Positions 29,776 through 46,368 of a DNA stretch of 50,896 nt are shown here, one piece after another; the stretch's first letter is position 1, and every line of letters starts with the position of its first letter. Made by a program: the position numbers and the translations under genes. The notes under the pieces were generated by a model. It saw only the letters and a list, made by a program, of their open reading frames with translations. It ran no database searches and was not told where the DNA came from. Source of the DNA: ANME-2 cluster archaeon (GTDB taxonomy: Archaea; Halobacteriota; Methanosarcinia; Methanosarcinales; Methanocomedenaceae); NCBI GenBank assembly GCA_019429385.1, contig JAHYIS010000014.1, forward strand, positions 1 to 50,896. The letters are read 5' to 3'.

Positions 29776-29777
29776 CA

Positions 29778-32700
29778 ATGAATCTAATCACCGAATCAGA
29801 AATAGAAAAATTCGCCATCGAACTCCTTGAACATAAGGGATACCAGTACATCTATGCTCCCGACATTGCCCCGGATAGCAACATACCGGAACGGAACCGA
29901 TTTGAAGATGTTCTCCTTTTTGATCGCCTGCGCACAGCCCTCAGCCGGATCAACCCAAATATTCCACCAGATTCGAGAGAAGATGCCATCAAGCAGATAC
30001 AGCGCCTCAATCCGCCCGAACTTATCGCCAACAACGAAGCATTCCACAGGATGCTTACCGAAGGCATAAAGGTAAGCTACCAGAAGGATGGAGCCGACAG
30101 GGGCGACCTGGTCTGGCTCATAGATTTTAACGATCCTGAAAACAACGAATTTCTTGTCGCCAATCAATTCACTGTTGTAGAAAATAACGTGAACAAACGC
30201 CCAGACATCATCCTTTTTGTTAACGGCCTGCCCCTGGTCGTTATCGAGCTGAAAAACCCTGCCGATGAGAACGCAACCGTAAGGTCTGCATTCAGACAGT
30301 TCCAGACCTACAAACAGGCAATCCCGTCTTTATTTGCTTATAATGGTTTTATAATCATCTCCGACGGCCTGGAAGCAAAAGCAGGTTCCCTATCAGCAGG
30401 TTTTAGCCGTTTTATGGCATGGAAAAGCTCAGACGGCAAGGTTGAGGCTTCACCTTTAGTTGGTCAGCTGGAAACGCTCATTAATGGGATGCTGAATAAA
30501 ACAACGCTCTTAGACCTTATCCGCCACTTCATAGTATTTGAAAAATCGAAAAAAGAAGACAAAGACACTGGCATTATAACTATTCAAACCGTAAAGAAGC
30601 TCGCAACCTATCATCAGTACTATGCTGTTAACCGGGCAGTAGAATCCACACTCAGGGCATCGGGTTATGCTGCAACTGAAGACTGGCAGGATACCGTTTC
30701 GATTGTTGAGGACCCTAAAAGTTATGACCTGCCCGGGGTGAAGCAACAGCCTGTCGGAGACAGAAAAGGCGGTGTGGTCTGGCACACGCAGGGAAGCGGG
30801 AAGTCCCTTTCCATGGTTTTTTACACAGGTAAAATTGTCCTGGTAATGGATAATCCCACCATAGTGATGATAACGGACCGCAACGATTTAGACGACCAGC
30901 TTTTTGATACCTTTGCTGCTTCAAAACAACTGCTCAGGCAGGAACCTGTGCAGGCAGAAAACAGGGGGCATTTGAAAGAACTGCTAAACGTCGCATCGGG
31001 TGGCGTAGTATTTACCACCATCCAGAAGTTCCAGCCCGAAGAAGGAAACGTTTACCCGAAACTATCAGACCGGAAAAACATCATTGTGATAGCTGACGAA
31101 GCTCACCGGACACAATACGGCTTCAAGGCCAAAACCATTGATGTAAAAGATGAAAAGGGAAACGTAATCGGTCAAAAGATCGTGTACGGTTTTGCGAAAT
31201 ACACTCGCGACGCCCTGCCCAATGCAACGTATCTGGGATTCACCGGTACGCCGATAGAAAAAACAGACGTGAACACGCCTGCTGTTTTTGGCAATTATGT
31301 TGACATTTACGACATATCACAGGCTGTTGAGGACGGCGCCACAGTAAAGATCTATTACGAGAGCAGGCTGGCAAAGATCACTCTTAGCAAGGAAGGTAAA
31401 AAACTGGTCGCAGAATTAGATGAAGAACTGGAAAAAGAAGACCTTGCAGAAACCCAGAAAGCCAAAACGAAATGGACACAACTGGAAGCCTTGATCGGCA
31501 GCGAAGACCGGACAAGGCAGATTGCACAGGATATTGTAACTCATTTCGGCCAAAGACAGGAAGTGTTTGAAGGCAAGGGAATCATTGTCGCAATGTCACG
31601 AAGGATAGCGGCCAACCTGTACGATGAGATTGTTAAGATCAAACCGCAATGGCATAATGATGACCGTAAAAAAGGTGATATCAAGATTGTGATGACCTCT
31701 GCATCCTCTGACGGACCCAAAATATCAAACCATCATACGACAAAAGAGCAGAGGAGAGCTCTTGCAGAGCGAATGAAAGACCCGCAAGATGAATTGAAAC
31801 TGGTCATCGTTCGGGATATGTGGCTTACAGGTTTTGATGTCCCCTGTCTGCATACGATGTACATTGACAAGCCAATGAAAGGGCATACCCTTATGCAGGC
31901 AATTGCGCGGGTGAACAGAGTCTATAAAGACAAACCGGGTGGTCTGGTTGTTGATTACCTTGGAATAGCTTCCGACCTGAAAGAAGCCTTATCGTTCTAT
32001 TCTGACAGCGGCGGGAAAGGCGACCCCGCTGTCCTTCAGGAGCAGGCAGTTCAATTTATGCTCGAAAAACTGGAGATCGTATCCCAGATGTTTTATGGAT
32101 TTTCCTACGAACATTACTGTACAGCGGATACTTCTGCGAAGCTGTCAATAATACTTGCAGCAGAAGACCATATTCTGGGTCTCGAAAATGGTAAAAAAAG
32201 ATACATCGATGAAGTAACTGCATTATCAAGAGCTTTTTCCATAGCCATTCCACACGAGCAGGCAATGGATGTAAAGGACGAAATCTCGTTCTACCAGGCG
32301 ATAAAAGCCAGACTAGTTAAATTTGACAGCACGGGAACAGGAAAAACAGACGAAGAGATTGAAACCGCAATCAGGCAAGTCATCGATCAAGCCCTTGTTA
32401 CTGAACAGGTGATAGATGTGTTTGGTGCCGCTGGAATCAAAAAACCTGACATTTCCATATTGTCAGAAGATTTTCTGTTAGAAGTCCAGAATATGGAGCA
32501 CAAAAATATCGCTCTGGAAGTCCTGAAAAAGTTGCTCAACGATGAAATAAAAGCCCGGGTAAAGAAAAACCTGGTTCAAAGCAGATCATTAATGGAACTG
32601 CTGGAAGATTCTATCAGGAAATATCATAATAAAGTTATCACTGCAGCTGAAGTTATTGAAGAATTGATAGACCTCAGTAAAGAGATAACGCGAATGGACA

Positions 32701-33011
32701 AAGAGCCTCAGGATATGGGATTGTCTGAATTTGAATATGCGTTTTACACTGCAATTGCAGAGAATGACAGTGCAAGAGAATTGATGCAAAAAGAGAAGCT
32801 ACGGGAATTAGCTGTCGTCTTATTCGAAAAAGTCAAACAAAATGCATCGATAGACTGGACGATTAAAGAAAGTGTCAGGGCCAAATTGAAGGTGATTGTA
32901 AAACGGACATTAAGACACTATGGTTATCCTCCGGATATGGAGGCACTTGCTACAGAAACTGTGCTCAAACAGGCGGAATTGATTGCTGATGAAATAACAA
33001 AGAGGGGATGA
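29778..33011 (+). CDS. hsdR: Type I restriction enzyme R subunit HsdR
   Basis: A 1077-residue HsdR of normal length. The N-terminal nuclease shows RPDIILFVNGLPLVVIELKNP (PD-ExK), followed by the SF2 translocase with Walker A GSGKS (about 340), DEAH-type motif II IADEAHRTQYG (about 440), motif III GFTGTPIEK and motif VI-like MQAIARVNR. The helical C-terminal third contacts HsdM/HsdS. With HsdM and HsdS it would translocate and cut unmodified DNA. Since hsdM is frameshifted, an active R subunit without methylation would be harmful, so the complex may be inactive or M supplied otherwise. Confidence 0.93.
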   Translation: MNLITESEIEKFAIELLEHKGYQYIYAPDIAPDSNIPERNRFEDVLLFDRLRTALSRINPNIPPDSREDAIKQIQRLNPPELIANNEAFHRMLTEGIKVSYQKDGADRGDLVWLIDFNDPENNEFLVANQFTVVENNVNKRPDIILFVNGLPLVVIELKNPADENATVRSAFRQFQTYKQAIPSLFAYNGFIIISDGLEAKAGSLSAGFSRFMAWKSSDGKVEASPLVGQLETLINGMLNKTTLLDLIRHFIVFEKSKKEDKDTGIITIQTVKKLATYHQYYAVNRAVESTLRASGYAATEDWQDTVSIVEDPKSYDLPGVKQQPVGDRKGGVVWHTQGSGKSLSMVFYTGKIVLVMDNPTIVMITDRNDLDDQLFDTFAASKQLLRQEPVQAENRGHLKELLNVASGGVVFTTIQKFQPEEGNVYPKLSDRKNIIVIADEAHRTQYGFKAKTIDVKDEKGNVIGQKIVYGFAKYTRDALPNATYLGFTGTPIEKTDVNTPAVFGNYVDIYDISQAVEDGATVKIYYESRLAKITLSKEGKKLVAELDEELEKEDLAETQKAKTKWTQLEALIGSEDRTRQIAQDIVTHFGQRQEVFEGKGIIVAMSRRIAANLYDEIVKIKPQWHNDDRKKGDIKIVMTSASSDGPKISNHHTTKEQRRALAERMKDPQDELKLVIVRDMWLTGFDVPCLHTMYIDKPMKGHTLMQAIARVNRVYKDKPGGLVVDYLGIASDLKEALSFYSDSGGKGDPAVLQEQAVQFMLEKLEIVSQMFYGFSYEHYCTADTSAKLSIILAAEDHILGLENGKKRYIDEVTALSRAFSIAIPHEQAMDVKDEISFYQAIKARLVKFDSTGTGKTDEEIETAIRQVIDQALVTEQVIDVFGAAGIKKPDISILSEDFLLEVQNMEHKNIALEVLKKLLNDEIKARVKKNLVQSRSLMELLEDSIRKYHNKVITAAEVIEELIDLSKEITRMDKEPQDMGLSEFEYAFYTAIAENDSARELMQKEKLRELAVVLFEKVKQNASIDWTIKESVRAKLKVIVKRTLRHYGYPPDMEALATETVLKQAELIADEITKRG

Positions 33012-33364: not shown

Positions 33365-35236
33365 TTAAATCCCCAAAGCCTTTCGCTTTTTCATTATATG
33401 TGCTTCCATACCGTCCACCGCTTCCACAGGGTCAGCCTCAACAGCCAGCTTTCCGCCTGTGAGCCCCTCGAGGTCCTGTGTGAGCAGTTTGACCAGATTT
33501 GGAGCTCCTGCCACGGGCGGCAGGGGTGCTACATGGGTATACCAACCGTTCGCCAGGGCAAATATGGCATCGATAGTAGCTTTCTGTTCCATATATTCAG
33601 GCGCGGTCACCACAATCGGCAGGGCAGACGGGTCAATGCCCAATGCATCTGCAATGGCATTGGCCAGCATTGTCAGCCGACCGGTATCGGTGCAGGTGCC
33701 AAAGCTCAATACCGGGGGGATACCCAGTGACTGGCACACGGCCTTCAGGCCCGGACCGGCAAGTTCCTGCGCCTCGATAGTGGTCAGTCCTGCCACCTGC
33801 AGGGCTGCATTACCGCATCCGGCACTTAACACCAAAATGTCCCTCTTGATGAGTTCCTTAGCAACTGCAACAGTATTGACATCCTGCCCGCCGCCGTTCA
33901 ATGTGGTACAACTTACCAGGGCCGCACAACCTTTGATACTGCCCGCTTTCACTGCATCCAGGAACGGGTCCAGGGTGCCGCCGAGTGCCGCCAGGATGGC
34001 CTCGGTCGAAAAACCGGTAATGGTCTTCTGTGTGGGCAGGTCGTGCCTGACGAACCCGGCAGCCTTTCGCGTTTTGAAATTATCAATTGCAAGGTCAACG
34101 AGCTCCTGTGCCTGGGCTTCAACCTTTTCAGGTTTGTACACTATCTGCCTGTCAACACCCGGCATGGATACGAGCTTGGACACCGAGACCAGGGTCACAT
34201 GATACTTGTCCTGGAAATCTGCAAGAGCAGGTGGTGAGCAGTTCATATCCATGGCAAACACATCGATACCGCCTGTTGCCAGTGCGGCTTCAATACTGAG
34301 CCAGTTGCCGGTAAGTCCTACGAACACCTCGTCCTTTTCAAAGCGCTGCAGCAGTTCCTGTCCGGTTTCAATGGAACCTATGACCCGCAGGCCCTTTGCT
34401 CCGGCAGTCTTTGCTATTTTCTGGTTCTCTGGCTTGTGTGCAACCCCTATCAATGCAGCGCCGATAAACGGCTCATGTCCGTTTACCACCACATTGATAT
34501 ATTCCGGGTCAATGATCCCCAGGTCCACATCATGTTCATGCGGCGTTGGTGTGCCGAACAGGATATCCTGCCCCAGTTCAAGAGGTACCTGTGAACCGTA
34601 GATCGTGGAAATACCCAGCCGCATTGCTTTGACAGCCAGGGATACATAATTCCCGTCAATATTGGTCATGCTGGAGGTATGCATGTCCATTGACTCGTCC
34701 AGTGGCCCTCCCGGCAGGATTCCCAGCCCTTTCCATACCTTAATCCTTGATTCCGGGGCAAAAAGTTCGACCATGTTGAGCACTCCATCAGAATCGCTGT
34801 GGATGCTATCAAGTATGGCCTTGCCCACACTCACGGCCATTGTATTGACATCCTGCTCCTGTATACCCAGTTTCCCTGCAAGCATGAGCAGTTTTCCTTC
34901 ATCCTTGATGGTAAATGGCGTCTGGCCTTTTCCCGTGGCTATCAGGGTATTTGCCAGTTCCTTGGCATGGTACGTGTATGCCGTAGTCCCCATCACGTTC
35001 AGATGGAGGAGGTTGCGCATTGCCATGGCATCCGCATCAATACCGCAAGCTCCCAGAGGTGCTTTCTCTGACAAGCGGCAGGGTCCGTTGCTGCACAGCT
35101 GGCAGCTCACTCCTGTGCTGCAAAAAGTACAGCGTTTCCCTTGCGCTTCAAAACGATCGAAGGTATTTCCCACGCCGTCTGCCTGCATAACGTTATGCAT
35201 TTTTCGAATAGATTCATGTACACTTACCGTTTCCAT
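33365..35236 (-). CDS. cooS: CooS-type carbon monoxide dehydrogenase homologue with altered active-site cluster
   Basis: A 623-residue homologue of monofunctional Ni-CODH. The D-cluster motif is CX2C (C36, C39), which I recall from [2Fe-2S] D-cluster enzymes. The B-cluster ligands are C45, C48, C53 and C64. At the C-cluster, H254 (NGHEP), C333, C437, C474, C515 and K552 (APEYMEQK) align with canonical residues. The GICCTGNE motif, which carries the iron-ligating Cys295 of the Carboxydothermus enzyme, reads GSIETGQE, so that cysteine is E290. CO oxidation is therefore doubtful. No CooF-like ferredoxin is adjacent; neighbours are flavodiiron and rubrerythrin-type genes. ATG 35236 has GGTGAT upstream. 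Confidence 0.87.
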   Translation of the reverse strand: METVSVHESIRKMHNVMQADGVGNTFDRFEAQGKRCTFCSTGVSCQLCSNGPCRLSEKAPLGACGIDADAMAMRNLLHLNVMGTTAYTYHAKELANTLIATGKGQTPFTIKDEGKLLMLAGKLGIQEQDVNTMAVSVGKAILDSIHSDSDGVLNMVELFAPESRIKVWKGLGILPGGPLDESMDMHTSSMTNIDGNYVSLAVKAMRLGISTIYGSQVPLELGQDILFGTPTPHEHDVDLGIIDPEYINVVVNGHEPFIGAALIGVAHKPENQKIAKTAGAKGLRVIGSIETGQELLQRFEKDEVFVGLTGNWLSIEAALATGGIDVFAMDMNCSPPALADFQDKYHVTLVSVSKLVSMPGVDRQIVYKPEKVEAQAQELVDLAIDNFKTRKAAGFVRHDLPTQKTITGFSTEAILAALGGTLDPFLDAVKAGSIKGCAALVSCTTLNGGGQDVNTVAVAKELIKRDILVLSAGCGNAALQVAGLTTIEAQELAGPGLKAVCQSLGIPPVLSFGTCTDTGRLTMLANAIADALGIDPSALPIVVTAPEYMEQKATIDAIFALANGWYTHVAPLPPVAGAPNLVKLLTQDLEGLTGGKLAVEADPVEAVDGMEAHIMKKRKALGI

Positions 35237-35403
35237 TAAATCACCACTCCCTAGTTTATTCAAAATTAATATAAGGATTCCCGAATATTATCAACATAAC
35301 AATGATAAATGACTGCATTGACACTATCCTGAAATCCCGATACTTTGTAGTATTTAATATTCTCTATGTGCCATTCGTATCGGATTTTTGTGGATTGTAA
35401 TTG

Positions 35404-35679
35404 CTATCTAACGAACAAGGCACATTTACAGGCCCCCCGCTGTTCTAATTCCCTGGAACGATATACACACGGACAGATGATCTTCCGGTCAGTCTCTTTA
35501 TTCCGCGTTATCTCCCGGCAGCTGCAATACTGTTCACCGTATTTTTTCTTGTTATTGGCTATCCCTTTTATCGCCATTGCAACAATGTCATAATCCGGGT
35601 TCAGTTTACAGCCGGTCTTTTCAGCATTCTGCTTTGCGAATTCATATATTTGGGTTTCAATATCATCGAATTGTGCCAT
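35404..35679 (-). CDS. ftrB: Ferredoxin:thioredoxin reductase catalytic-chain-like protein
   Basis: A 91-residue protein with the FTR catalytic signature: C24 (GCKLNPD), then YCSCR, CPC and CKC with family spacing, enough for the [4Fe-4S] cluster and its redox disulfide. In this family electrons from ferredoxin reduce thioredoxin-like partners; archaeal forms often lack the plant-type variable subunit, and none is seen here. AGGAGG lies upstream of ATG 35679. It sits between FprA (38 nt before) and cooS (about 167 nt after), so it may pass electrons within the oxygen-defence block. Confidence 0.86.
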   Translation of the reverse strand: MAQFDDIETQIYEFAKQNAEKTGCKLNPDYDIVAMAIKGIANNKKKYGEQYCSCREITRNKETDRKIICPCVYRSRELEQRGACKCALFVR

Positions 35680-35716: not shown

Positions 35717-36913
35717 TTAAACTTTACCTGCTATCCGTTCACCCAGCTGCCGGCATTTTTCAAGTCCTTCTTTATCAGGCCGGTACCGTATCTGCAGCCC
35801 CGGCTCTACAAGTTCAAATCCTGTGGCCTCAAGTTCTTTCTCAACAGCCTTCACAGCACCGCCTCCCCAGCCGAATGACCCGAACACAGCGGCTTTTTTA
35901 CCACCGGGTCGCAGTCCCTTCAGGTAGGTCAGGAATCCCCCCACGGAGGGGAACATGCCGTTGTTCAGTGTGGGTGAGCCTATCACTATCACAGGTGCAT
36001 CCAGTAATTCCTTGATGATCTTGCTCAGCTCATTCTTCCTGATAGCCATCAGTTTCACATCGACTCCGGCTGACGTCACCCCTTCAACGATTGCCTTTGC
36101 CATCATATAGGTGCTACCCCACATGGTATCATAGATGACAAGCACCTTCTTTGCGTTCTCACCCTGTGCCCAGCGCCCGTATGCCTGGATTATCTGACCC
36201 GGGTCCCGCCGCCATATGACACCATGACAGGGTGCAATCATATCGACTTCGATACCCAGTTCCCCGACAGTCCCGACATAATTCAATATCTGTTTCCCGA
36301 ACGGCATCAGGATATTGGCATAATATTCGGCGGCATCTTCCATCACATCGTCCACCTCATCGTTGAACCGCTTCGACGTTGCCACGTGCTGTCCGAAAGC
36401 GTCGTTTGATAGCAGAATTTTATCTTCCTTGATGTAGGTGTGCATGCTGTCAGGCCAGTGCAGCATCGCTGCTTCGATGAACATCAATGTTTTGGTACCA
36501 AGGTTCAGTTCAGTCCCGGTCTCAACAATTTCAAAGTCCCATTTGTCACATCCCTGTGCATGATAATATTGTGACAGGCCGTTCTTACACTGCCGTGTGC
36601 CGTATATCTTTGCATTGGGTATTGCTTCCATGACAGCGGGCAGGGAACCTGAATGGTCCATTTCCACGTGGTTCGCTACCACATAATCTATCCTGGCAGG
36701 GTCTATGATATCACGTATACGTTCTAACATTTCACCTGCAAACTCTGCCTTGACAGTATCCACAAGTGCGACCTTCTCATCCACAATGAGATATGCGTTG
36801 TATGTAGTACCCATTGGAGTTACATATCCGTGGAAGTCACGGATGTTCCAGTCAATGGCACCTACCCAGTACACTCCTTTTGTGAGTGTTACCGGCCCCC
36901 TTTCTTTCCCCAT
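35717..36913 (-). CDS. fprA: A-type flavoprotein (flavodiiron protein) FprA
   Basis: A 398-residue flavodiiron protein. The N-terminal metallo-beta-lactamase-like domain has the diiron ligands HVEMDHSG (residues about 81-88), an IEAAMLHWPDSMHTY segment and LSNDAFGQH, with CHGVIWR closing the domain. The C-terminal flavodoxin domain begins KKVLVIYDTMWGST. In methanogens FprA reduces O2 to water with F420H2. GAGGTGA five bases before ATG 36913 supports the start. It follows the ferritin-like gene by 14 nt. Confidence 0.93.
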   Translation of the reverse strand: MGKERGPVTLTKGVYWVGAIDWNIRDFHGYVTPMGTTYNAYLIVDEKVALVDTVKAEFAGEMLERIRDIIDPARIDYVVANHVEMDHSGSLPAVMEAIPNAKIYGTRQCKNGLSQYYHAQGCDKWDFEIVETGTELNLGTKTLMFIEAAMLHWPDSMHTYIKEDKILLSNDAFGQHVATSKRFNDEVDDVMEDAAEYYANILMPFGKQILNYVGTVGELGIEVDMIAPCHGVIWRRDPGQIIQAYGRWAQGENAKKVLVIYDTMWGSTYMMAKAIVEGVTSAGVDVKLMAIRKNELSKIIKELLDAPVIVIGSPTLNNGMFPSVGGFLTYLKGLRPGGKKAAVFGSFGWGGGAVKAVEKELEATGFELVEPGLQIRYRPDKEGLEKCRQLGERIAGKV

Positions 36914-36927
36914 TTATTCACCTCACA

Positions 36928-37422
36928 TTATGTCTGCATCCGGAACTGTGATGCATCATCGATAAATCCGTCTATGAGTTCCATGTGCCCGTGTTCAAAA
37001 ACTGCCAGTCTTTCAAAGAATGCTTTTTGTCCAGGTTCATCTGCCCATACTGCCAGTTCCTTGTAGAATTTCTCGTTCTTCTGTTCAAACCGTAGCGCAC
37101 TCATCAACACATCCATTTCACCTGGATTGTCACTTGAATATTCACTGGCAAAAGCCTGTGAAAAATCAGGTGGTACATTCTCATTTGTCTCAGATGCCTG
37201 ACCTGTGTTCATGAAATCATTGAGGTATTCAATATGCTTATCCTCCTGTGCTGCCAGGTACACGAACAGGTCCTTAGCTGATATACTGGTCGAAGTCTCA
37301 ATTTTTCCAAGATAGAAATTGCGTCCCTGCTTTTCAATTGACAATGCTACACGGAAAGCATCATCAATGGTCTTTAAGTCCCCGATTAATTTATCAATAT
37401 CCTGCATTATATCTTCAACCAT
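36928..37422 (-). CDS. Ferritin-like diiron protein (rubrerythrin-related, no rubredoxin domain)
   Basis: A 164-residue four-helix protein with two ExxH half-sites. IEKQGRNFY with QEDKHIEYL forms the first, and RFEQKNEKFYKEL with FEHGHMELIDGF the second, giving E/E-x-x-H pairs that bind two irons. It lacks the rubredoxin tail of classic rubrerythrin. Likely roles are peroxide reduction or iron handling. ATG 37422 is chosen because AAGGTGGT lies five bases upstream; the longer frame to 37449 has no such site. It lies between YHS and fprA in one transcript. Confidence 0.85.
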   Translation of the reverse strand: MVEDIMQDIDKLIGDLKTIDDAFRVALSIEKQGRNFYLGKIETSTSISAKDLFVYLAAQEDKHIEYLNDFMNTGQASETNENVPPDFSQAFASEYSSDNPGEMDVLMSALRFEQKNEKFYKELAVWADEPGQKAFFERLAVFEHGHMELIDGFIDDASQFRMQT

Positions 37423-37451
37423 TATTACCACCTTTTTTCCTTTGATCATTG

Positions 37452-37592
37452 TTACACATATTTGTCTGGGTTTTTATCAAATTCTTTCTTGCAACCTGGA
37501 GCACAGAAAAAGAACTTCCTGCCTTTATGTTCAGATTTGAATTTTGCAGTTGCCTCGTCGACTTCCATCTTGCATATCGGATCTATTGCCAT
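37452..37592 (-). CDS. YHS-domain protein
   Basis: A 46-residue single YHS domain: AIDPICKMEVDEATAKF, then FFFCAPGCKKEFDKNPDKY, with the metal-binding C...CxxxC set. YHS domains bind heavy-metal ions or metal centres and are found in copper and mercury handling and monooxygenases. GAGGTGAT five bases before ATG 37592 marks the start; the longer open frame has no start signal. It is the first gene of the leftward group ending at cooS and lies 29 nt before the ferritin-like gene. Confidence 0.83.
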   Translation of the reverse strand: MAIDPICKMEVDEATAKFKSEHKGRKFFFCAPGCKKEFDKNPDKYV

Positions 37593-37913
37593 GTATATCA
37601 CCTCTGAATTCAATACCGTTGCTGACCTCCAGCCCCCTTCCTTAAAATATATCTTCCCTATAACAAATAAATTTTCCCCATTCAGGTACATTCACATGCA
37701 ATACGGGAAAACTGCAATGGGCATTGATACCGATTCGTAATCCAGGTACACTGTTCATTATATTCTCAGGTTTTTGGTTCATCGTCAACAGGGGACCAGG
37801 AAAAAATGGAACGAATCCAGTTCGCGTATTTCATCATCGTTCCATTATCCTTTCCATTATTTCATTACCGGTTCCATAAATACTATCACGATTCAGTTCT
37901 ACCGCTTTCACGA
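37593..37913 (-). promoter_or_regulatory. Intergenic region with promoter for the YHS-ferritin-FprA-FTR-CooS group
   Basis: The 321-nt gap holds no convincing gene. On the minus strand, GATATATTTTAAGG (around 37645-37658) and AAATTTATTTG (around 37665-37675) are TATA-like elements at workable distance from the YHS ATG. The part near 37840-37880 has several TTCCATTA-like repeats of unknown meaning. Confidence 0.4.
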
Positions 37914-38132
37914 TTATGGTTTAACCTTGCAGGTACTGAACTTAAATATTGTATAGAGCGGGCAGAACCCAATGATACCGGTAACCAGGAGCAATAGTCC
38001 TAACAGTACAACGATGTAGGACACTATTCCGGTCAGTCCCATGTATACAGCTCCAATATATAACAATACAATTCCCAGGATTACCCGGATGACCCGGTCA
38101 GCTGTACATTTGTTCAATTCCCTGTATTTCAC
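37914..38132 (-). CDS. DUF2892 (YgaP-type) small membrane protein
   Basis: A 72-residue protein with the DUF2892 pattern: TADRVIRVILGIVLL in the first hydrophobic helix, a second helix LLGLLLLVTGIIG, and the typical FCPLYTIFKFSTC end with two cysteines. Members often sit beside rhodanese or sulfur-transfer genes. GTG 38132 overlaps an AGGGAGGTG site; TTG 38117, better spaced from that site, is an alternative start. It lies 17 nt after the nitroreductase gene and is co-transcribed with it. Confidence 0.8.
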   Translation of the reverse strand: MKYRELNKCTADRVIRVILGIVLLYIGAVYMGLTGIVSYIVVLLGLLLLVTGIIGFCPLYTIFKFSTCKVKP

Positions 38133-38149: not shown

Positions 38150-38650
38150 TTAAAACCTGTTAATGTGTATTTTACGTTCAACAGGGACCCTGACAGGTTT
38201 TTCAGGTTCTTCGTCAGGATATCCGATTGGCATTATGGCAGCAACATCATATCCTTCGGGTATGTTCAACAGTTCCTTGATCTTACCGCCCCTTGATGTT
38301 AATGTGACCGACCCCAATCCTTCTGCTGTAGCAGCCAGCAGGATATTCTCGATACATGTGTACGCTGAAGCCATACCATCCACCCCAAGTTCATTCTCGT
38401 AACATACGACCAGTATCAGGGGTGCAGTCTCAAGAGCAATTCTCTGGGGTGGTATCCTGGCCCTTGTTTGTGCAATAGCATTCTGCAATGCCCTGTCTGT
38501 TATCAGGATGAATTCCCATTGCTCCTTATTGAAGGCATTGGGTGCCTGTGTGCCTGCCCGAAGGATTTTTGTTATAGTTTCATCAGGCACAGGCTCTGAC
38601 CTGAATTTCCTGATGCTTTTCCTTTTCTGGATAGCTTCATATACTTCCAT
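38150..38650 (-). CDS. Nitroreductase-family FMN protein
   Basis: A 166-residue nitroreductase-fold protein with N-terminal RKSIRKFRSEPVPDETI, the FMN-contacting RAGTQAPNAFNKEQWEF segment, and C-terminal AIMPIGYPDEEPEKP. The usual activity is NAD(P)H- or F420H2-dependent reduction of quinones, nitro compounds or flavins; the substrate is unknown. Length is on the short side but complete. It starts the small transcript ending in DUF2892 and lies within the redox block. Confidence 0.87.
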   Translation of the reverse strand: MEVYEAIQKRKSIRKFRSEPVPDETITKILRAGTQAPNAFNKEQWEFILITDRALQNAIAQTRARIPPQRIALETAPLILVVCYENELGVDGMASAYTCIENILLAATAEGLGSVTLTSRGGKIKELLNIPEGYDVAAIMPIGYPDEEPEKPVRVPVERKIHINRF

Positions 38651-38909: not shown

Positions 38910-39338
38910 TCACTTCAGTTTTCCGGCTATCTGTACCCCAAGCTGCCGGCACTCTTCCAGTCCTGCATCTGCCGGCCGGCGTTTAATGCGCAGTGGCGGT
39001 TCCATGACATCCATGCCATACCCCTTGAGCATCCCGGTGATAACCTTTGATGCCTCCCCGCTCCAACCATAGGAACCAAACGCAGTACCAACCTTTCCTT
39101 TCAGTGACAGGCCTGCCATCCCTTTCACGAACTCAATAACTGCAGGCATGGCTTCACCTTTATATGTGGCAGAACCAATGGCTATAGCATCAGCTCCTTC
39201 CACATCAGCAATGCCCGACTCTTTCACGTTCTTAATGATAACTTCAACACCTGCACTTTTAGCCCCCTCTTCAATGGCCTGGGCCATCAGCCCGGTATTC
39301 CCAAATCCTGTCCCGTATATTATTGCCAGTCGTGCCAT
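38910..39338 (-). CDS. Flavodoxin
   Basis: A 142-residue flavodoxin with phosphate-loop-like YGTGFGNTGLMAQAI, the GSATYKGEAMP loop and GSYGWSGEA. It resembles the C-terminal domain of the FprA protein at 35717 (shared SFGWGG/SYGWSG, RRP.D..L.EC..LG..IAGK), so the two are probably related by descent. It likely carries electrons for rubrerythrin or the superoxide reductase. GAGGT before ATG 39338 supports the start. It lies 10 nt after the rubrerythrin gene. Confidence 0.88.
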   Translation of the reverse strand: MARLAIIYGTGFGNTGLMAQAIEEGAKSAGVEVIIKNVKESGIADVEGADAIAIGSATYKGEAMPAVIEFVKGMAGLSLKGKVGTAFGSYGWSGEASKVITGMLKGYGMDVMEPPLRIKRRPADAGLEECRQLGVQIAGKLK

Positions 39339-39348
39339 TTCCCATACC

Positions 39349-39843
39349 TCAATCTATCTTATTGAACATTTCTTTTGGTGCATTGCAGATCGGGCATCTG
39401 TCAGGCGGATGCTTCTCCACCGTATTGCCGCATATCTGGCACACGTAATAGTCAACTTCCTTATTGCTGCCAAGGTCCTTCAAAGCTTTTTGGAACAGGC
39501 CGGCATGGATCTCTTCCACCTTGTTTGCAATTTCAAAGCTCAGGACTGCAGAATCCTGAAGCAACTCACCTTTTGCCTCCTTGATAAAAGCAGGATACAT
39601 GTTCCTGAATTCCTCGATCTCTCCTTCAATAGCCGCCTTCAGGTTCTCTTCAGTATTACCAACGGCTTCCAGTGCTTCCAGATGGTTCAGGGCGTGCACG
39701 GTTTCAGCTTCAGCAGCAGCCCTGAAGAGTTTTGCTACCTGGTGGTACCCTTTCTGGTCAGCTCTCCTGGCAAAGGCCGTGTATTTCCGGTTAGCCTGCG
39801 ATTCTCCGGCAAATGCCGCTTTAAGATTATTTTCTGTTGTCAT
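39349..39843 (-). CDS. rbr: Rubrerythrin
   Basis: A 164-residue rubrerythrin. The N-terminal diiron four-helix domain shows LKAAFAGESQANRKYTAFA and AAAEAETVHALNHL, then EGEIEEFRNMYPAF and ANKVEEIHAGLF. The C-terminal rubredoxin-type iron site is YVCQICGN with CPICNAPKEMF. Rubrerythrins reduce hydrogen peroxide to water in anaerobes. It has a GAGG site upstream and is followed by flavodoxin 10 nt later, a natural electron-donor pairing. Confidence 0.93.
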   Translation of the reverse strand: MTTENNLKAAFAGESQANRKYTAFARRADQKGYHQVAKLFRAAAEAETVHALNHLEALEAVGNTEENLKAAIEGEIEEFRNMYPAFIKEAKGELLQDSAVLSFEIANKVEEIHAGLFQKALKDLGSNKEVDYYVCQICGNTVEKHPPDRCPICNAPKEMFNKID

Positions 39844-39895: not shown

Positions 39896-41218
39896 TTATG
39901 TCCTCAACCGTTTATAAGCATCACGCTCCACAATCGCCCCCTGAGCCTCGGCCACAACCAGCAAATCGATCTCTGATGCCACATTCCCAATAGCATACAC
40001 ACCATCCAGGTTAGTCCGCTGGTACTTATCAGTCTTTACAAATCCTGATTCATCCATCTCAACACCCAGCTTCTCCATAAGACCAACATTCGGCACCATC
40101 TCGGTAGCCAGCACCACAGCATCCACGACAATCTCCAGCTTCTCGCCTTCTGTCTGGTCTTCCATTATTGCTTTCTCAACTTTTGTACCGCCCTTGACCT
40201 CAATAAGGGTGGTCGAAGTCAGCATCTTGAGCCCCTCGATGCACTTCACTTTATCCATCTCCCGCTCCGGGACCATGAACGACGCCTCATCTGTCACCAA
40301 TGTAATACTGTCAGCAATCCCGCCAATACAGCCGGCCGTAGACAGAGCATTATACCCCCTGCCATACACCAGCACCCGCTTACCAGTCAGTTTTGAAGGG
40401 TCTGCAGTCAGGTAATAAATACCTCCTTCGTTCGATACAAACTTCTCAACGCCTTCTATATCGGATTTGGCAGGCGAACTGCCTGAAGCCAGCACCAGCA
40501 CCCTGGCCTTATATGTCCCCGAATCCGTTTTCAAAGACTTGGAATCACCATCAATCTCAATATCATTCACGTATTCATTGACCATCTTTGCGTCCTGTGC
40601 GCTTACATCATCCATCAGTGACCGGGTCACCTCACGGGTGGTCATAGTATCGGTCATACCCGGATAATTCTCTATCAATTTATCAGGACAGAGCTTGTTG
40701 AGCAAGCCACCCCACTGCCCGCCATCGAATATCACAGTCTTAAGACCAACATACGAAGACATGGTAGCAGCTGCCAGTCCGGCTGCACCACCGCCGATTA
40801 TCGCCACTTCATACTCGTTCTCGCCCAATTTCGCAATACCCTTCTCCTGCTTATCCATGTAATCTTTAATGGCAGCATGAAGCGCATCCGCAGCCAGGTT
40901 CGAGCAGTGCATTTTAATCGGCGGCAGGCCTTCCAGTTCATCTGCCACATCCTGTCTGGTAATCTCAAGAGCCGCTTCAAGGGTCTTGCCCATCGCGATT
41001 TCTGTGACCATGCTACTGGTCGCGATAGCAGAAGCGCACCCGAAGGTCTTGAACTTGATATCCTTGATGATATTGTTCTCAACCTTAAGCTGTATCTCCA
41101 TCATGTCGCCGCAAACCGGATTTCCTACCCGGCCAATGGCATCCGCATCCTTGATAGTTCCCACGTTCCTGGGATTCCTGAAATGGTCCTTTACTTTTTC
41201 CGAATATTCTATTGTCAT
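39896..41218 (-). CDS. NifU/IscU scaffold fused to a thioredoxin-reductase-like flavoprotein lacking CxxC
   Basis: A 440-residue fusion. Residues 1-125 are an IscU/NifU N-terminal scaffold with all three cluster cysteines (C36 in GNPVCGD, C61 in FGCASAIA, C105 in KMHCSNLA). Residues 136-440 are a thioredoxin-reductase-type flavoprotein with FAD motif GGGAAG (142-147) and ENYPG. Where the redox CATC normally lies, the sequence reads LTAD (270-273). The NAD(P) motif is GRGYNA, and the FAD end motif is IGNV rather than GDV. The domain may feed electrons to cluster assembly or bind another cofactor. ATG 41218 has GGGAGA upstream; nifS ends 5 nt before it. Confidence 0.87.
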   Translation of the reverse strand: MTIEYSEKVKDHFRNPRNVGTIKDADAIGRVGNPVCGDMMEIQLKVENNIIKDIKFKTFGCASAIATSSMVTEIAMGKTLEAALEITRQDVADELEGLPPIKMHCSNLAADALHAAIKDYMDKQEKGIAKLGENEYEVAIIGGGAAGLAAATMSSYVGLKTVIFDGGQWGGLLNKLCPDKLIENYPGMTDTMTTREVTRSLMDDVSAQDAKMVNEYVNDIEIDGDSKSLKTDSGTYKARVLVLASGSSPAKSDIEGVEKFVSNEGGIYYLTADPSKLTGKRVLVYGRGYNALSTAGCIGGIADSITLVTDEASFMVPEREMDKVKCIEGLKMLTSTTLIEVKGGTKVEKAIMEDQTEGEKLEIVVDAVVLATEMVPNVGLMEKLGVEMDESGFVKTDKYQRTNLDGVYAIGNVASEIDLLVVAEAQGAIVERDAYKRLRT

Positions 41219-41223
41219 GATGA

Positions 41224-42387
41224 TCAATCTCCCTGATAGAGTGGTGACAAAGCACGCAACCGTTCCACAACCTGAGGTAAACTCTCAAGCACATGGTTAA
41301 CCTCTTCCTGGGTGTTCCACTTGTTAAGGGACAGCAACAGCGACCCGTGAGCTTCTTCATGCCTCAGTCCGATGGCAATAAGCACATGGGACGGCTCCAG
41401 GGTCTTGACAGAACAGGCAGAGCCGGTGGATGCCTCCACCCCAAGGTCGCTGAGGCTCATGATAATACTCTCGCCCTCAATGAAACTGAACCGGAACGTG
41501 GCGATATGGGGAAGCCGCTTTGTCCTGTGACCGGTAAGATATGAATACTTTATCTTTCCAAGTATTTCTTCGATCAATTTCTCCCTGAGTGCTTTCATCT
41601 GTCTGGCATCAAGTTCCATTTCCTCTTTTGCCAGTTCGCATGCCTTGCCCATTCCAACAATACCGGAAATATTCTCAGAACCAGAGCGCAATCCGCGTTC
41701 CTGGCCCCCGCCTGTCATGACAGGCCGCAGCGCCACACCCGACCGTATGTACAATGCACCGACACCTTTTGGACCGTACAGGTCATTGGAAGCGAGGGAC
41801 AGCAGGTCAATAGTGTCTTTTTGCACATCAATGGGTATCTTACCGGCAGCTGCCACAGCATCCACATGAAATATAATATTCTTCTCCCTGGCCATAGCAC
41901 CGATTTCCGGTACAGGCTGGATTGTCCCTATCTCACCATTAGCGTACATGCATGATATCAGGATAGTCTGGTCAGTAACCTCCTGTGCAATGCGGGTGGG
42001 GTCAACCACTCCATCTTTATCCACAGGTACCGTGGTCACCTCAAACCCTTCACGCTGCAGGTCTTTACAGGTATTGACCACTGACATGTGCTCGATGGCC
42101 GAGATTATGATATGGTTTCCTTTTTTCTTCAGACGTTGTACAGCGCCCCTTATGGCAATATTGTTCGATTCAGTACCGCCAGACGTGAAGATGATTTCCT
42201 TACTTTGGGCCCCGATAAGAGCGGCTACTGACTCCCTGGCACCTTCTAATGCCTTTCTGGCCTCAGCACCGGATTCATGAAGTGAAGCGGGATTGCCCAC
42301 ACTGTACTCAAAATAGGGAAGCATAGCTTCAACCACGCGTTTGTCCACTGGCGCACCAGAGGCATTATCCATATATACTCTGTCCAA
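41224..42387 (-). CDS. NifS/IscS-family protein lacking the PLP-binding lysine
   Basis: A 387-residue cysteine-desulfurase homologue. It keeps MDNASGAP, FTSGGTESNN, H100 (AIEHMSV), D176 (HVDAV), RSGSEN and the sulfur-accepting C325 (TGSACS). The Schiff-base lysine of the SxHKxYGPKG motif is replaced: SNDLYGPKG puts D202 at that position and N at the histidine. The PLP-contacting Gln in DAVQAA is Ala179. I recall an Archaeoglobus IscS with the same Lys-to-Asp change that lacks PLP. Desulfurase activity is therefore unlikely; it may relay sulfur on C325 to the adjacent NifU domain. TTG 42387 has AAAGGTGG upstream. Confidence 0.87.
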   Translation of the reverse strand: MDRVYMDNASGAPVDKRVVEAMLPYFEYSVGNPASLHESGAEARKALEGARESVAALIGAQSKEIIFTSGGTESNNIAIRGAVQRLKKKGNHIIISAIEHMSVVNTCKDLQREGFEVTTVPVDKDGVVDPTRIAQEVTDQTILISCMYANGEIGTIQPVPEIGAMAREKNIIFHVDAVAAAGKIPIDVQKDTIDLLSLASNDLYGPKGVGALYIRSGVALRPVMTGGGQERGLRSGSENISGIVGMGKACELAKEEMELDARQMKALREKLIEEILGKIKYSYLTGHRTKRLPHIATFRFSFIEGESIIMSLSDLGVEASTGSACSVKTLEPSHVLIAIGLRHEEAHGSLLLSLNKWNTQEEVNHVLESLPQVVERLRALSPLYQGD

Positions 42388-42401
42388 TCCGAGCCACCTT
42401 T

Positions 42402-42767
42402 CTAAAACCACATTGTCCCATCAGCTTCCAATACCAGGTCGTTAAGGGTTGCCGCCCCAACGATTTCAACTTCAGGTATGAACTCGCCTCTATCAAGACC
42501 TATCAACTGGGTGCTGGCTTCGCAGACATATAGCTTAACCCCGGCAGCTGCGGTCTGGTCAAGCACCTGTTTTAGGTCAGGAAAAATCCCGACCTGCACT
42601 TTTTCGGCTTCTCCTTTCTTAACCACGGTGATACCCATACCCAAAAAATACACGGTAGCATCAATACCCATAGCTTTGGCAGTCTGAGCAAGCACTAGAG
42701 GGGAATACAATCTTTCTGGTGTGTTCACTCCGCTGGTCTGGACATATAATAATTTTTCGTCAGCCAT
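42402..42767 (-). CDS. DsrE-family sulfur-transfer protein
   Basis: A protein of about 121 residues with the DsrE/DsrF fold: EKLLYVQTSGVNTPERLYSPL, ATVYFLGMGITVVKKG and a conserved cysteine in VKLYVCEAS. DsrE-like proteins bind persulfide sulfur and hand it on, often from TusA. ATG 42767 has GGAGATAGGAAAG upstream; ATG 42788 overlaps the tusA stop and is an alternative that would add seven residues. It lies between tusA and nifS with minimal spacing. Confidence 0.85.
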   Translation of the reverse strand: MADEKLLYVQTSGVNTPERLYSPLVLAQTAKAMGIDATVYFLGMGITVVKKGEAEKVQVGIFPDLKQVLDQTAAAGVKLYVCEASTQLIGLDRGEFIPEVEIVGAATLNDLVLEADGTMWF

Positions 42768-42784
42768 CTTTCCTATCTCCTTGT

Positions 42785-43033
42785 TCATTTAGTTCTCTCG
42801 ATAAGGAACCGGAAATTGTCTCCCTGGTCCTCGAATTTCAGCAATTTATGTCCGGTCCGTTTAGCCCATCTGGGAATATCCTGGGTCGAGGCCGGGTCGT
42901 CGGTAAGCACTTCCAGTACCTCGCCAACCTCAATAGTATTAATGGCCTCTGTAGTGTTGAACACAGGAATAGGACAGAACAGACCTATGCAGTCCAGTGT
43001 CTTATATGGATGTGTTTCTGGTGTGTGGTTCAC
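42785..43033 (-). CDS. tusA: TusA/SirA-family sulfur carrier
   Basis: An 82-residue TusA-like protein with the defining CPxP motif (LDCIGLFCPIPVF) and the EVLEVLTDDPAS strand. The active cysteine carries persulfide sulfur. An extra cysteine precedes it (DCIG). The start is GTG 43033, overlapping the stop of the cytochrome gene in AAGTGA, with AAGGGA upstream. With dsrE it forms a sulfur-relay pair directly upstream of the NifS-like and NifU-like genes. Confidence 0.88.
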   Translation of the reverse strand: MNHTPETHPYKTLDCIGLFCPIPVFNTTEAINTIEVGEVLEVLTDDPASTQDIPRWAKRTGHKLLKFEDQGDNFRFLIERTK

Positions 43034-44406
43034 TTTTTATTCCCTTTCATTATGTATACTAATAGCATGAACCCCAATGTCATCGGAATTGTTATCTGGA
43101 ACCCGGGCATGCTTGTATCGTTATCCCCAAGTGTTTCCGAATCCTGTGTCATATCGACTACAGGCACCACGAACTCTTCTCCCAATAAATCATTGATGAA
43201 TTCCTGGGGAGCAGAGCGATATTTTAGTACTGCAGTGATAGAAACGGGTAAGGTCACATCCTCAGGCATTGTAAATCCATGGGTTTCGGTATCTTCACCT
43301 TTTGGTGGTATCCTGTGGTCTGACAGGATGCTCTCGGCTTCCCATATCTTATGAGTAGGATTGCCATTTGCATCGCCTACTATAGTATGGTACACAATTG
43401 CCTCAGGGTCAATATTGCCATGGTCGTCCAGGGCACCCGAGCGATAAATTTCATTCCCTTGCCCATCGATCATAGTTATATCCAGCCACATTTCCCTTGA
43501 TTCGGTCAGGCCGGTTGGCAGATAATGCCCGGCTCCGATATTCTTTATGGTAACCTCGAACTCATAAGACTCACCCGGCACCACTGAGCCACCAGGTATC
43601 ACTTTTACCTGTGCCGCTCTTTGCAATCTTTCCACTGACATGTCTGCATGGGTCTTGGAACCCAGGAATTCGGTCATGAATACATTCCCACCTACACCGA
43701 AATGGGTCCATATATGTTCCCGACTCGCACTTAATCCGGATGCTGGACCGGGATTAGCCTGGTATTTTGTAATACCCGGAGTCATGTGACAATCCTGGCA
43801 CTGGATACCTTCGGTTGCATAGGGGCCGTTCTTCCATTCTGTATAAGTGGCTTCAAGAGGGAGCCCGTTTATAGGATGGTTAACATCATGACACATACCG
43901 CAGAATTCGGCCTTTGTATGGAGTTCGGAGTATTCCGTTTCGTGGGCTGGCGACCTTGAGTCAGCGAAAGGACCCCGCTTTATACCATCTGGTGATACGG
44001 TAAATTTCGCGTTTGCTGTGCCGTCGCTCTCAGATACCGTGTGACAGAAATCGCACTGTACACCCTTTTTGGCTATTTCACTCAGGTTGGAGCCGTCCGC
44101 TGGCGGCACTTCCCCTGAGACGACCCCGATAGGTGTGTGACATCTTGCACAGTATGTATCGGTAAGCCCGTCGGTTTCTTTACTTGCCATTTTTGACAGT
44201 GCCAGGTAGTATGGGTCTATAACGGCCTTTGAATGCATGGAACCATCCCACTGTTTGTATATTTCAGCATGGCATGACTGGCACTTTTTCAAAGGGTCCG
44301 CAAACTGGTCTGAACTGAATTCTCCTGGTGCAGTTTCGGCCAAACCCTGGATTTGGATTGCTAATATCAAAGATAAAACTAGTATCACCATTCTTCTTAA
44401 CTTCAT
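43030..44406 (-). CDS. Five-heme cytochrome c with signal peptide and C-terminal anchor
   Basis: A 458-residue exported protein. A signal peptide (about residues 1-24) precedes five CxxCH heme sites: CQSCH (42-46), CARCH (86-90), CDFCH (118-122), CGMCH (169-173) and CQDCH (203-207). The arrangement resembles cytochrome c554-type domains. A beta-rich region follows (about 255-420), and a single hydrophobic helix with a KGNKK tail ends the protein, so it is membrane-anchored facing outward. It may be an electron outlet for detoxification or respiration. ATG 44406 has AGGAGAG seven bases upstream. Its stop overlaps the tusA start. Confidence 0.88.
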   Translation of the reverse strand: MKLRRMVILVLSLILAIQIQGLAETAPGEFSSDQFADPLKKCQSCHAEIYKQWDGSMHSKAVIDPYYLALSKMASKETDGLTDTYCARCHTPIGVVSGEVPPADGSNLSEIAKKGVQCDFCHTVSESDGTANAKFTVSPDGIKRGPFADSRSPAHETEYSELHTKAEFCGMCHDVNHPINGLPLEATYTEWKNGPYATEGIQCQDCHMTPGITKYQANPGPASGLSASREHIWTHFGVGGNVFMTEFLGSKTHADMSVERLQRAAQVKVIPGGSVVPGESYEFEVTIKNIGAGHYLPTGLTESREMWLDITMIDGQGNEIYRSGALDDHGNIDPEAIVYHTIVGDANGNPTHKIWEAESILSDHRIPPKGEDTETHGFTMPEDVTLPVSITAVLKYRSAPQEFINDLLGEEFVVPVVDMTQDSETLGDNDTSMPGFQITIPMTLGFMLLVYIMKGNKK

Positions 44407-44481
44407 TGAACAACTCTCCTTTTCCGAATTATTGCCTCTAGAGGGTTTGATCCTTAATACACTCAAATCAATTCAAATGTA

Positions 44482-44850
44482 TTAACCTACAGTAATATCT
44501 CTGGTACTCTCCCACAATCCGTGAATATTACATCGCTCTATAACTCTCAATGTTGCCCTTCCTGCCGCTTCCAACACAACAGTCAAAGTAATACTGGCTT
44601 TCGTAAAACCAGGGGTAAACGCAATCCTGGCCAGGAAATCCTCTCCTGCATAAAGTTCCACCCACTGGATGTGATGTGCCGGTTCCATTACATGAGGTAT
44701 GCTCCCCACGGTAACACTCACTTCAAATGGTTCGCCTGGCTTTACACTGCCGGGAGATACGATCACAGGGACATGTTTCTTTTCCGCTTCGGTCAGATCT
44801 GCCGCATCAACTGGTCGGTTCATTCCATTAAAAAAATTCTTTTCTGTCAT
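44482..44850 (-). CDS. Superoxide reductase, neelaredoxin type
   Basis: A 122-residue one-iron superoxide reductase. The iron ligands appear as KHVPVI (with E23-K-K-H), HHIQWVELY (His pair) and CNIHGLWE (Cys and His). It lacks the N-terminal desulforedoxin domain of 2Fe-SOR. It reduces superoxide to hydrogen peroxide, which rubrerythrin could then remove. AGGTGA lies upstream of ATG 44850. A separate desulforedoxin-like ORF two genes upstream could be its electron donor. The 75-nt gap to the cytochrome gene contains the palindrome CCTCTAGAGG. Confidence 0.9.
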   Translation of the reverse strand: MTEKNFFNGMNRPVDAADLTEAEKKHVPVIVSPGSVKPGEPFEVSVTVGSIPHVMEPAHHIQWVELYAGEDFLARIAFTPGFTKASITLTVVLEAAGRATLRVIERCNIHGLWESTRDITVG

Positions 44851-44871: not shown

Positions 44872-45219
44872 TTATTTCACCAATTTCAGCGCTTCTCTAC
44901 ATGAAGCCACGCCTGGAGCGCCTGATGTGAGGAAGACCACTTCCATAGTTTCCATGATCTCTTCTTTTGTTGCACCCTGTTTCAGGGCACTTCTCATCTG
45001 TGCGACGGTACAGGATTCACAACGCTGGGACGCTACTACCGCCAGTGCCATCAACACTTTTGCCTTTGCTGTAAGGGCACCGTCTGAGAGAAGTTTCTTA
45101 TCACATTTATGGTATGCTTGAAGGAAATCCGGGTCAAGATCACCGATAGTGTGCAATACTTGAGGTTCAAAACCCAATTTATTTTCGATATCCTTGATAA
45201 TCTTCTTTTGTTCGGTCAT
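44872..45219 (-). CDS. Carboxymuconolactone decarboxylase / AhpD-like protein
   Basis: A 115-residue all-helical AhpD-like protein. The redox motif is CESC in SQRCESCTVAQM followed by the family ALKQGATKEEIMETM helix. The CxxC with the neighbouring acidic and histidine-type network is used for alkylhydroperoxidase or disulfide reductase activity. It lies 31 nt after the desulforedoxin gene and 21 nt before superoxide reductase in the same direction. A peroxide or disulfide stress role fits its operon. Confidence 0.87.
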   Translation of the reverse strand: MTEQKKIIKDIENKLGFEPQVLHTIGDLDPDFLQAYHKCDKKLLSDGALTAKAKVLMALAVVASQRCESCTVAQMRSALKQGATKEEIMETMEVVFLTSGAPGVASCREALKLVK

Positions 45220-45250: not shown

Positions 45251-45373
45251 TCATTTCAGGAGTTCCATATCCTCGCCACAGCAGACCAGGGTCCCGCCAC
45301 CGACTTTAGTCACCGTCACTTCATTACCACAGATATTGCATCGATACTTTTCGCCTTTCTCCATTACTGCCAT
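45251..45373 (-). CDS. Desulforedoxin-like small iron protein
   Basis: A 40-residue protein, complete from ATG 45373 (GGAGGT eight bases upstream) to TGA at 45251-45253. It contains [13 protein letters not shown], then LVCCGEDM: the CxxC...CC iron site of desulforedoxin and of the N-terminal domain of desulfoferrodoxin. It would hold one Fe(S-Cys)4. It is the first gene of the large leftward oxygen-defence and sulfur operon, and a plausible electron carrier for the superoxide reductase. Confidence 0.85.
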
Positions 45374-45491
45374 TTTCAATAACCTCCACTACTTGTTAAC
45401 AGGGATTTTGTCAATCAGATTATATAATCGTGTTGGTATCCAATTTGACTACTTCCCTGGTATTGTACATGAACAAAAAAGGATATATACT

Positions 45492-45525
45492 TAACTATTA
45501 ATTATATACGTAACCATTAATTATC
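45492..45525. promoter_or_regulatory. Direct-repeat operator-like sites between the redox operon and its regulator
   Basis: TAACTATTAATTAT at 45492-45505 and TAACCATTAATTAT at 45511-45524 differ at one base and are 19 nt apart centre to centre. They lie immediately upstream of the TrmB-family gene, whose ATG at 45535 has no ribosome binding site. ATTATATA overlaps the first copy and may be its TATA element. Binding by the regulator would give autoregulation, and perhaps control of the divergent operon. Confidence 0.5.
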
Positions 45526-45534
45526 AACATAATA

Positions 45535-46368
45535 ATGATAAAAAATTCACGCCACCAGGTGGACAAGCAATTATTGAGTGCATTCCTTGTTCTTGCCCTG
45601 ACCCATAAGGAAGCCCAGGCCTATTATGCACTGGTGATCAGGGGAGTAATGACTGCTGAAGATATCAGTAAAGTCATACAGGTGCAGCACGCTATAGTGT
45701 ACAGGACATTAGAGAGTTTGAGAAATAAGGGATGGATAGATTCCACTACTGACCGTCCTAAGAAGTACCGGGCAAAACAGCCGAAAACTGCGGCCGAGTC
45801 TGCAGGAAATGCGCTTATCTCAAAGGTAAATGAATCGGTGGGGCTGGTCAGCGAATTGCTGGAACCGGTGTATGATGATAACCAGGAAATGTTGCGCCAG
45901 GAGTTGTGGACCGTACGCGGGCTGGACAATGTTATCCGCAAGCTGCAGGAGATGGGTGAGAGAACGAAACAGGGGATATTCGGGAAGATAACCGGTCCTA
46001 TCGATGATACTACCTTCAACCGTTTGTTCAAATGTACACCTTTAAATGTTCCGGTGAGTGTACAGATAATGGGGCCGCCTATTGTGGATATGGATCCTGG
46101 TCTTAAAAAGCGCATACTGGTAAAACGTCCGAATTTTGAAGCCCGGTGCAAGAACTTCCCTATGACCACACCCACTGCCAAGTCAAAGGAAGATTTCCTA
46201 AAAGATGTTCACGGTAACAGGTTCATAGCTATTCACCTGTTATTTGACGAGAGGGAGGCTATGTGGATAAATATACCTTACCGGGACAACGTGGTCATTG
46301 AAGAAAAGGTGTGGGCTAACTGGATAATCGACCCTGAATATATCGCAATCATCAAAGCTGAGGTATGA
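45535..46368 (+). CDS. TrmB-family transcriptional regulator
   Basis: A 277-residue regulator. Residues 10-85 form the TrmB winged helix (LALTHKEAQAYYALVIRGVMTAEDISKVIQVQHAIVYRTLESLRNKGWI). The C-terminal part (about 110-277) is a phospholipase-D-like/TrmB sensor fold with a well-conserved LRQELWTVRGLDNVIRKL region and two cysteines (FKCTP, EARCKNFP) that might sense redox state; that last point is inference. It is divergent from the oxygen-defence operon and its promoter carries near-identical repeats. The stop is one base before the DUF166 start. Confidence 0.85.
   Translation: MIKNSRHQVDKQLLSAFLVLALTHKEAQAYYALVIRGVMTAEDISKVIQVQHAIVYRTLESLRNKGWIDSTTDRPKKYRAKQPKTAAESAGNALISKVNESVGLVSELLEPVYDDNQEMLRQELWTVRGLDNVIRKLQEMGERTKQGIFGKITGPIDDTTFNRLFKCTPLNVPVSVQIMGPPIVDMDPGLKKRILVKRPNFEARCKNFPMTTPTAKSKEDFLKDVHGNRFIAIHLLFDEREAMWINIPYRDNVVIEEKVWANWIIDPEYIAIIKAEV

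Follow-up and report, generated by a model that had tools for sequence, protein, structure and literature searches.

Inoue et al. (PMC6344411) defined structural group D-1 of the carbon monoxide dehydrogenase (CODH) family by four features: Glu at the position of the first C-cluster Cys, Tyr at that of the acid-base His, a D-cluster of type III, and Glu two positions ahead of the Lys. Enzymes of the CooS-V type occur in both archaea and bacteria and are annotated as CO dehydrogenases. Biochemical evidence came from a study of CooS-V from Carboxydothermus hydrogenoformans (ChCODH-V), in which Jeoung et al. (PMC9311411) described a nickel-free Fe/S/O hybrid cluster that restructures with redox state, with Glu295 ligating Fe3 in the oxidized crystals. 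The enzyme neither oxidized CO nor reduced CO2; its turnover of hydroxylamine was slow, with a kcat of 0.13 per s, and no reduction of NO was detected (PMC9311411). Its potentials lie ~300 mV below those of the E. coli hybrid cluster protein (HCP), leading its authors to infer a role different from that of HCP.

Additional evidence came from ChCODH-II, where a C295E mutation lowered Ni binding and CO activity (PMC6344411). The likeness to the Glu ligand of Hcp, drawn in an earlier note on the DNA described here, is disputed: the residue sets of D-1 and HCP have been called identical (PMC6344411), whereas Glu295 has been stated not to align with the HCP Glu ligand (PMC10502027). A role in CO oxidation has also been considered. 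A genetic study of M. acetivorans, as cited in PMC6344411, suggested some such role for D-1 proteins, and CO oxidation has been suggested for Methanoperedens CooS proteins in PMC13079737, where CO oxidation by marine ANME-2b is cited as well. For clade D, a redox-sensing or regulatory role has been proposed, and a 2026 survey of gene context reported no clear pattern (PMC13056359).

The window analyzed here is a stretch of 50,896 nucleotides from an ANME-2 cluster archaeon (contig JAHYIS010000014.1 of assembly GCA_019429385.1); the closest named relatives of its genome show 89-95% identity. It carries a CooS gene, the last in a series of recognizable genes between 45379 and 33365, desulforedoxin-like protein through CooS, all on the minus strand:

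33365..35236, minus strand: CooS, structural group D-1 (CooS-V/CODH-V type), 623 aa, assigned by homology, profile and tree
34367..34369, minus strand: codon of Glu290 (Glu295 of ChCODH-V; Cys295 in canonical CODH), placed by alignment
35288..35308, minus strand: 21-nt operator TTATCATTGTTATGTTGATAA of the CooS promoter, with TTATAT 13 nt further on; invariant in seven genomes of the genus
35404..35679, minus strand: ferredoxin:thioredoxin reductase catalytic subunit (FTR; PF02943)
35717..36913, minus strand: FprA-type flavodiiron protein (ODP and flavodoxin domains)
36928..37449, minus strand: ferritin-like/rubrerythrin-like protein (FerL; PF02915)
37452..37691, minus strand: YHS-domain protein (PF04945)
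37914..38132, minus strand: YgaP-like transmembrane protein (PF11127)
38150..38650, minus strand: nitroreductase-family protein
38910..39338, minus strand: flavodoxin
39349..39843, minus strand: rubrerythrin
39896..41227, minus strand: NifU-type scaffold fused to a thioredoxin-reductase-like domain
41224..42411, minus strand: cysteine desulfurase NifS/IscS
42402..42788, minus strand: DsrE-family protein
43030..44466, minus strand: multiheme cytochrome c (cytochrome c554 domain)
44482..44850, minus strand: desulfoferrodoxin/superoxide reductase iron domain
44872..45219, minus strand: carboxymuconolactone decarboxylase (AhpD-like) family protein
45251..45379, minus strand: desulforedoxin-like small protein (desulfoferrodoxin N-terminal domain)
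45521..45541, minus strand: second copy of the operator, TTATCATTATTATGTTGATAA; it precedes the TATA box of the minus-strand genes and overlaps the start of the regulator gene
45535..46368, plus strand: TrmB-family transcription regulator, the proposed operator binder

The CooS reading frame runs from an ATG at 35236 to a stop at 33365-33367 and scores 785.7 bits with TIGR01702 (NCBIfam; cut-off 478), which upholds the gene call of the earlier note, where the strand was left unstated. Its best solved relative, full-length and without large insertions, is 7B7Q (E 4.8e-232), an entry labeled just "carbon monoxide dehydrogenase" in the PDB table; given its 629 residues and its motif, we take it to be ChCODH-V (PDB 7B7Q/7B7T/7B95/7B97/7B9A). 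The window protein is a clear relative of CODH-V, to which the earlier note had pointed, and the unusual Fe cluster and lack of CO oxidation that the note ascribed to that enzyme agree with the published work (PMC9311411). Comparison with six close relatives gave dN/dS values of 0.05-0.10, showing that the gene is under purifying selection. The genome has just one other prismane-family gene, an 803-residue CdhA-sized ORF on a different contig. Beyond the 3' end of CooS, on the opposite strand, positions 29350-33011 hold a type I restriction HsdR gene and a short ORF that, judged by eye, resembles a PIN-domain protein.

The motif GSIETGQE (residues 287-294, with GAA as the Glu290 codon) aligns without gaps to GSIESGQE of 7B7Q and places Glu290, not an intact Cys, at position 295. 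His254, Cys333, Cys443, Cys474, Cys515 and Lys552 are kept. Three more departures are common to the D-1 group: Tyr87 for the acid-base His93, Cys39 for a D-cluster Gly, and Glu550, two residues ahead of Lys552. Cys36 and Cys39 form the type III D-cluster (CX2C), where sequences outside D-1 have Gly at the second position. The protein thus lacks the complete five-Cys, one-His C-cluster motif of a catalytic Ni-CODH, with Glu at the Cys295 position, and has the D-1 pattern of Glu for the first C-cluster Cys and Tyr for the acid-base His, with the Lys, the His and four Cys retained. It shares Glu295, the His, the four Cys, the Lys and the type III D-cluster with ChCODH-V, from which it is set apart by its archaeal host, the 21-nt operator, the superoxide-reductase regulon and the FprA-FTR neighborhood described below. 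With canonical CooS Ni-CODHs (ChCODH-II, clades E/F) it shares the B-cluster Cys, the C-cluster His, four C-cluster Cys and the catalytic Lys, but differs in Cys295 to Glu, His93 to Tyr and D-cluster Gly to Cys. Every D-1 protein scored carries Glu at position 295, with Tyr87 and Cys39 also fixed, while the sister group of D-1 keeps the Cys (GSMCTGQE). An assembly error at Glu290 was ruled out: the Glu is fixed in every relative covering the position, and its codon changes from GAA to GAG among close relatives. The Cys-to-Glu change is already known and defines group D-1 (PMC6344411), so that the central observation of the earlier note was correct but describes a group-wide trait of a type already explained by the D-1 definition and CooS-V biochemistry, rather than a peculiarity of this gene.

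A CODH tree of 70 sequences, of which 55 were D-1 and ChCODH-V itself was not one, placed all 55 D-1 sequences, the window CooS and every other Glu sequence included, in one clade with support of 100. The window CooS is a further member of the known D-1 group. The Methanoperedens sequences nearest to D-1 keep the Cys (GSMCTGQE) and share Tyr87. CooS of ANME-3 (L010-L012, Methanosarcinaceae) groups with the ANME sequences, apart from D-1 CooS of the remaining Methanosarcinaceae, a placement that indicates horizontal transfer.

Evidence for a physiological setting comes from the operator. TTATCATTGTTATGTTGATAA is a palindrome, TTATCA-N9-TGATAA, in the spacer between FTR and CooS, where CooS has a promoter of its own. 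Across seven genomes of the genus, 21 of its 21 columns are invariant, against 53 of 155 in the rest of the spacer (p 2e-9), and the ANME-3 genomes have it at the same place before CooS with 0-1 mismatch. With up to three mismatches allowed, the 2.4-Mb genome has three sites, and none for the reversed control: before CooS, between the superoxide-reductase operon and the TrmB-family gene (45521-45541), and, on contig 23, before genes for a CGGC-domain protein and for a 4Fe-4S ferredoxin, the latter at L240:4951-5319 on the minus strand. Relatives and ANME-3 have the operator at these three targets as well. All three sites lie 12-13 nt upstream of a TATA-like box, and one also spans the start of the regulator gene, as expected for a self-repressing activator. 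We infer from this arrangement that the TrmB-family protein would activate the three targets and repress itself. An orthologue of the regulator is found in 18 of 186 genomes, and the operator, at no more than one mismatch, in all 18 of these but in only three of the other 168 (Fisher p 3e-22, kinship ignored). The pairing extends over ANME-2a-type genera, ANME-3 and a single other genome of the Methanosarcinaceae (G147); in ANME-3 the regulator is not encoded next to the superoxide-reductase genes. In some genomes (G184, G015) the regulon is present and CooS is absent. The operator was not found in the promoters of other D-1 genes (Methanoperedens, bacteria, Methanosarcina). A sharing of the operator by CooS and the superoxide-reductase operon lends independent support to the suggestion of the earlier note that CooS serves in oxygen stress.

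In a sister genus without the regulator, a D-1 CooS broken by a stop or frameshift (L091; G009:C39:91-1730) follows a degenerate operator with three mismatches at the same distance and seems to be in decay. Two genomes of a sister genus (L280:3052, L282:3034), in which no D-1 CooS was found, have the operator before a gene of the siroheme nitrite/sulfite-reductase type. The window regulator is followed by a DUF166 protein gene (46370-47113). Several relatives retain this pair, among them G147, in which the superoxide-reductase genes do not adjoin it.

The contig-23 ferredoxin is a candidate electron donor of CooS. Its cluster domain is 61-69% identical to a ferredoxin-domain protein encoded 53-380 bp ahead of D-1 CooS in bacteria of the Armatimonadota group, and it is 60% identical to a ferredoxin-domain protein in a Methanoperedens CooS island. 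Two kinds of link thus tie the ferredoxin to D-1 CooS: gene adjacency in some phyla and, here, the shared operator.

HCP itself offers a second point of comparison. The window CooS belongs to the same Prismane Pfam family, and ChCODH-V, a close relative, has a hybrid cluster. It scored 41.3 and 46.3 bits against the HCP models (TIGR01703/NF003658), far under the curated cut-offs of 360.8 and 367, and was therefore rejected as a true HCP; it differs further in its CODH-type B and D cluster motifs and its above-cut-off match to a CODH family. HCP scored above cut-off in 88 of 186 genomes; among the matches listed, all are Methanosarcinaceae, and none comes from the family of the window, Methanoperedens or ANME-3. 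A prismane-family search found no true HCP in the window genome, in contrast to C. hydrogenoformans, which has one in addition to ChCODH-V. HCP loci adjoin a cupin gene in 8 of 20 cases and have FTR nearby in 3 of 20; in some genomes such neighbors also occur with D-1 CooS, against none of 21 Cys-type CODH loci, counts that are small and include related genomes. On inspection, the cupins fell into two subfamilies, and the idea of one family beside both HCP and D-1 CooS was rejected; the HCP-type cupin stands at only three D-1 loci, two in one genus and one in Desulfurobacterium.

Taken as a whole, these data are best explained by an HCP-like, nickel-free enzyme of an oxidative/nitrosative-stress regulon that does not interconvert CO and CO2, a reading that we consider probable. 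CooS would be a homodimeric enzyme of the CODH fold and D-1 type with an Fe/S/O hybrid cluster, the cluster and its activities being carried over from ChCODH-V, the one source for both. In ANME-2a-type archaea and part of ANME-3, the TrmB-family regulator would bind the 21-nt palindrome and switch on CooS, the superoxide-reductase operon and the CGGC-ferredoxin operon. Electrons from that ferredoxin, and possibly from the neighboring FTR system, would reduce the cluster, which may then reduce reactive nitrogen or oxygen species in place of the missing HCP. The parallel with HCP suggests hydroxylamine or NO as substrate, though ChCODH-V was slow with hydroxylamine and its reduction of NO was not seen.

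The slow turnover and redox-dependent restructuring of ChCODH-V are also consistent with a redox or gas sensor or an electron sink, in which the morphing cluster reports redox state rather than catalyzing a reaction, in line with the role proposed for clade D (PMC13056359). This is improbable here: the window CooS is a target of the regulon and has no output domain, and joint control with superoxide reductase and a ferredoxin is more in keeping with an enzyme.

The setting also has to be weighed against a coincidental neighborhood, with CooS of unrelated function inserted behind a housekeeping oxygen-defense cassette. Profile matches confirm the FTR, FprA, ferritin-like and YHS genes that the earlier note had placed on the CooS strand. 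The order FerL-FprA-FTR-CooS is found in the genus of the window and in ANME-3; FTR-CooS is kept in the window, six relatives of its genus and three ANME-3 genomes, and in a fourth ANME-3 genome (G179) the operator stands right behind FTR, where the contig ends. Coincidence would fit several observations. The FerL/FprA/FTR cassette is widespread without CooS, being present in other genera of the family, ANME-3 genomes and Methanosarcinaceae, and is older than its linkage to CooS; CooS has its own promoter; and most D-1 genes stand elsewhere without such context (see also PMC13056359). Adjacency alone therefore proves little and was downgraded as the main argument. Within ANME-3, cassettes with CooS seem to resemble that of the window no more than cassettes without CooS do, and CooS thus seems to have been put behind the same cassette twice, or delivered by recombination. 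Given this repeated placement in two lineages with cassettes of seemingly vertical descent, and an operator that ties CooS to superoxide reductase and ferredoxin independently of adjacency, coincidence is quite unlikely. The NifU-TrxR fusion (39896-41227), which is unusual, adjoins NifS and rubrerythrin and has homologues in relatives.

A working Ni-CODH that oxidizes CO in a methanotroph despite the Glu, as the TIGR01702 annotation and the reports on Methanoperedens CooS and marine ANME-2b (PMC13079737) might suggest, is very unlikely and was rejected on the residues and the published biochemistry: Cys295 is a cluster ligand, and its change to Glu lowered both Ni binding and CO activity of ChCODH-II (PMC6344411); ChCODH-V lacks Ni as well as CO activity; the acid-base His is a Tyr; and CooC and CooF, as the earlier note had remarked, are not among the neighbors examined. 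D-1 CooS genes should not be counted as evidence of CO metabolism in ANME genomes.

The proposed stress-regulon enzyme might substitute for HCP in organisms that may be exposed to oxygen and NO where they live at sediment interfaces. A concrete lead to CooS-V function comes from three findings: an operator common to the targets, a regulator that co-occurs with it, and a ferredoxin that is co-regulated here and adjacent elsewhere. What appears to be new is this setting, that is, the regulon, the regulator-operator pair and the ferredoxin link; the open-access literature searched yielded nothing on it, or on a TrmB/desulfoferrodoxin regulon or superoxide reductase and rubrerythrin in ANME. A broader and more speculative proposal, which we regard as possible but short of probable, is that a CODH-derived hybrid-cluster enzyme took over the role of HCP in marine methane-oxidizing archaea and passed, with its operator, between ANME-2 and ANME-3. 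It would reduce NO or hydroxylamine with electrons from ferredoxin, as part of a TrmB-controlled stress regulon that also includes superoxide reductase and, in some genomes, octaheme cytochromes or a siroheme reductase. An octaheme cytochrome (PF13447) follows D-1 CooS in four loci, and a relative of it stands elsewhere in one genome (G017) behind an operator copy with one mismatch; the window genome has no close copy. In Methanoperedens, one island (L174:5324-12747) combines a Cys-type sister CooS, DUF2114, a ferredoxin-domain protein, an Lrp/AsnC-like regulator and a divergent D-1 CooS, and an octaheme cytochrome comes next.
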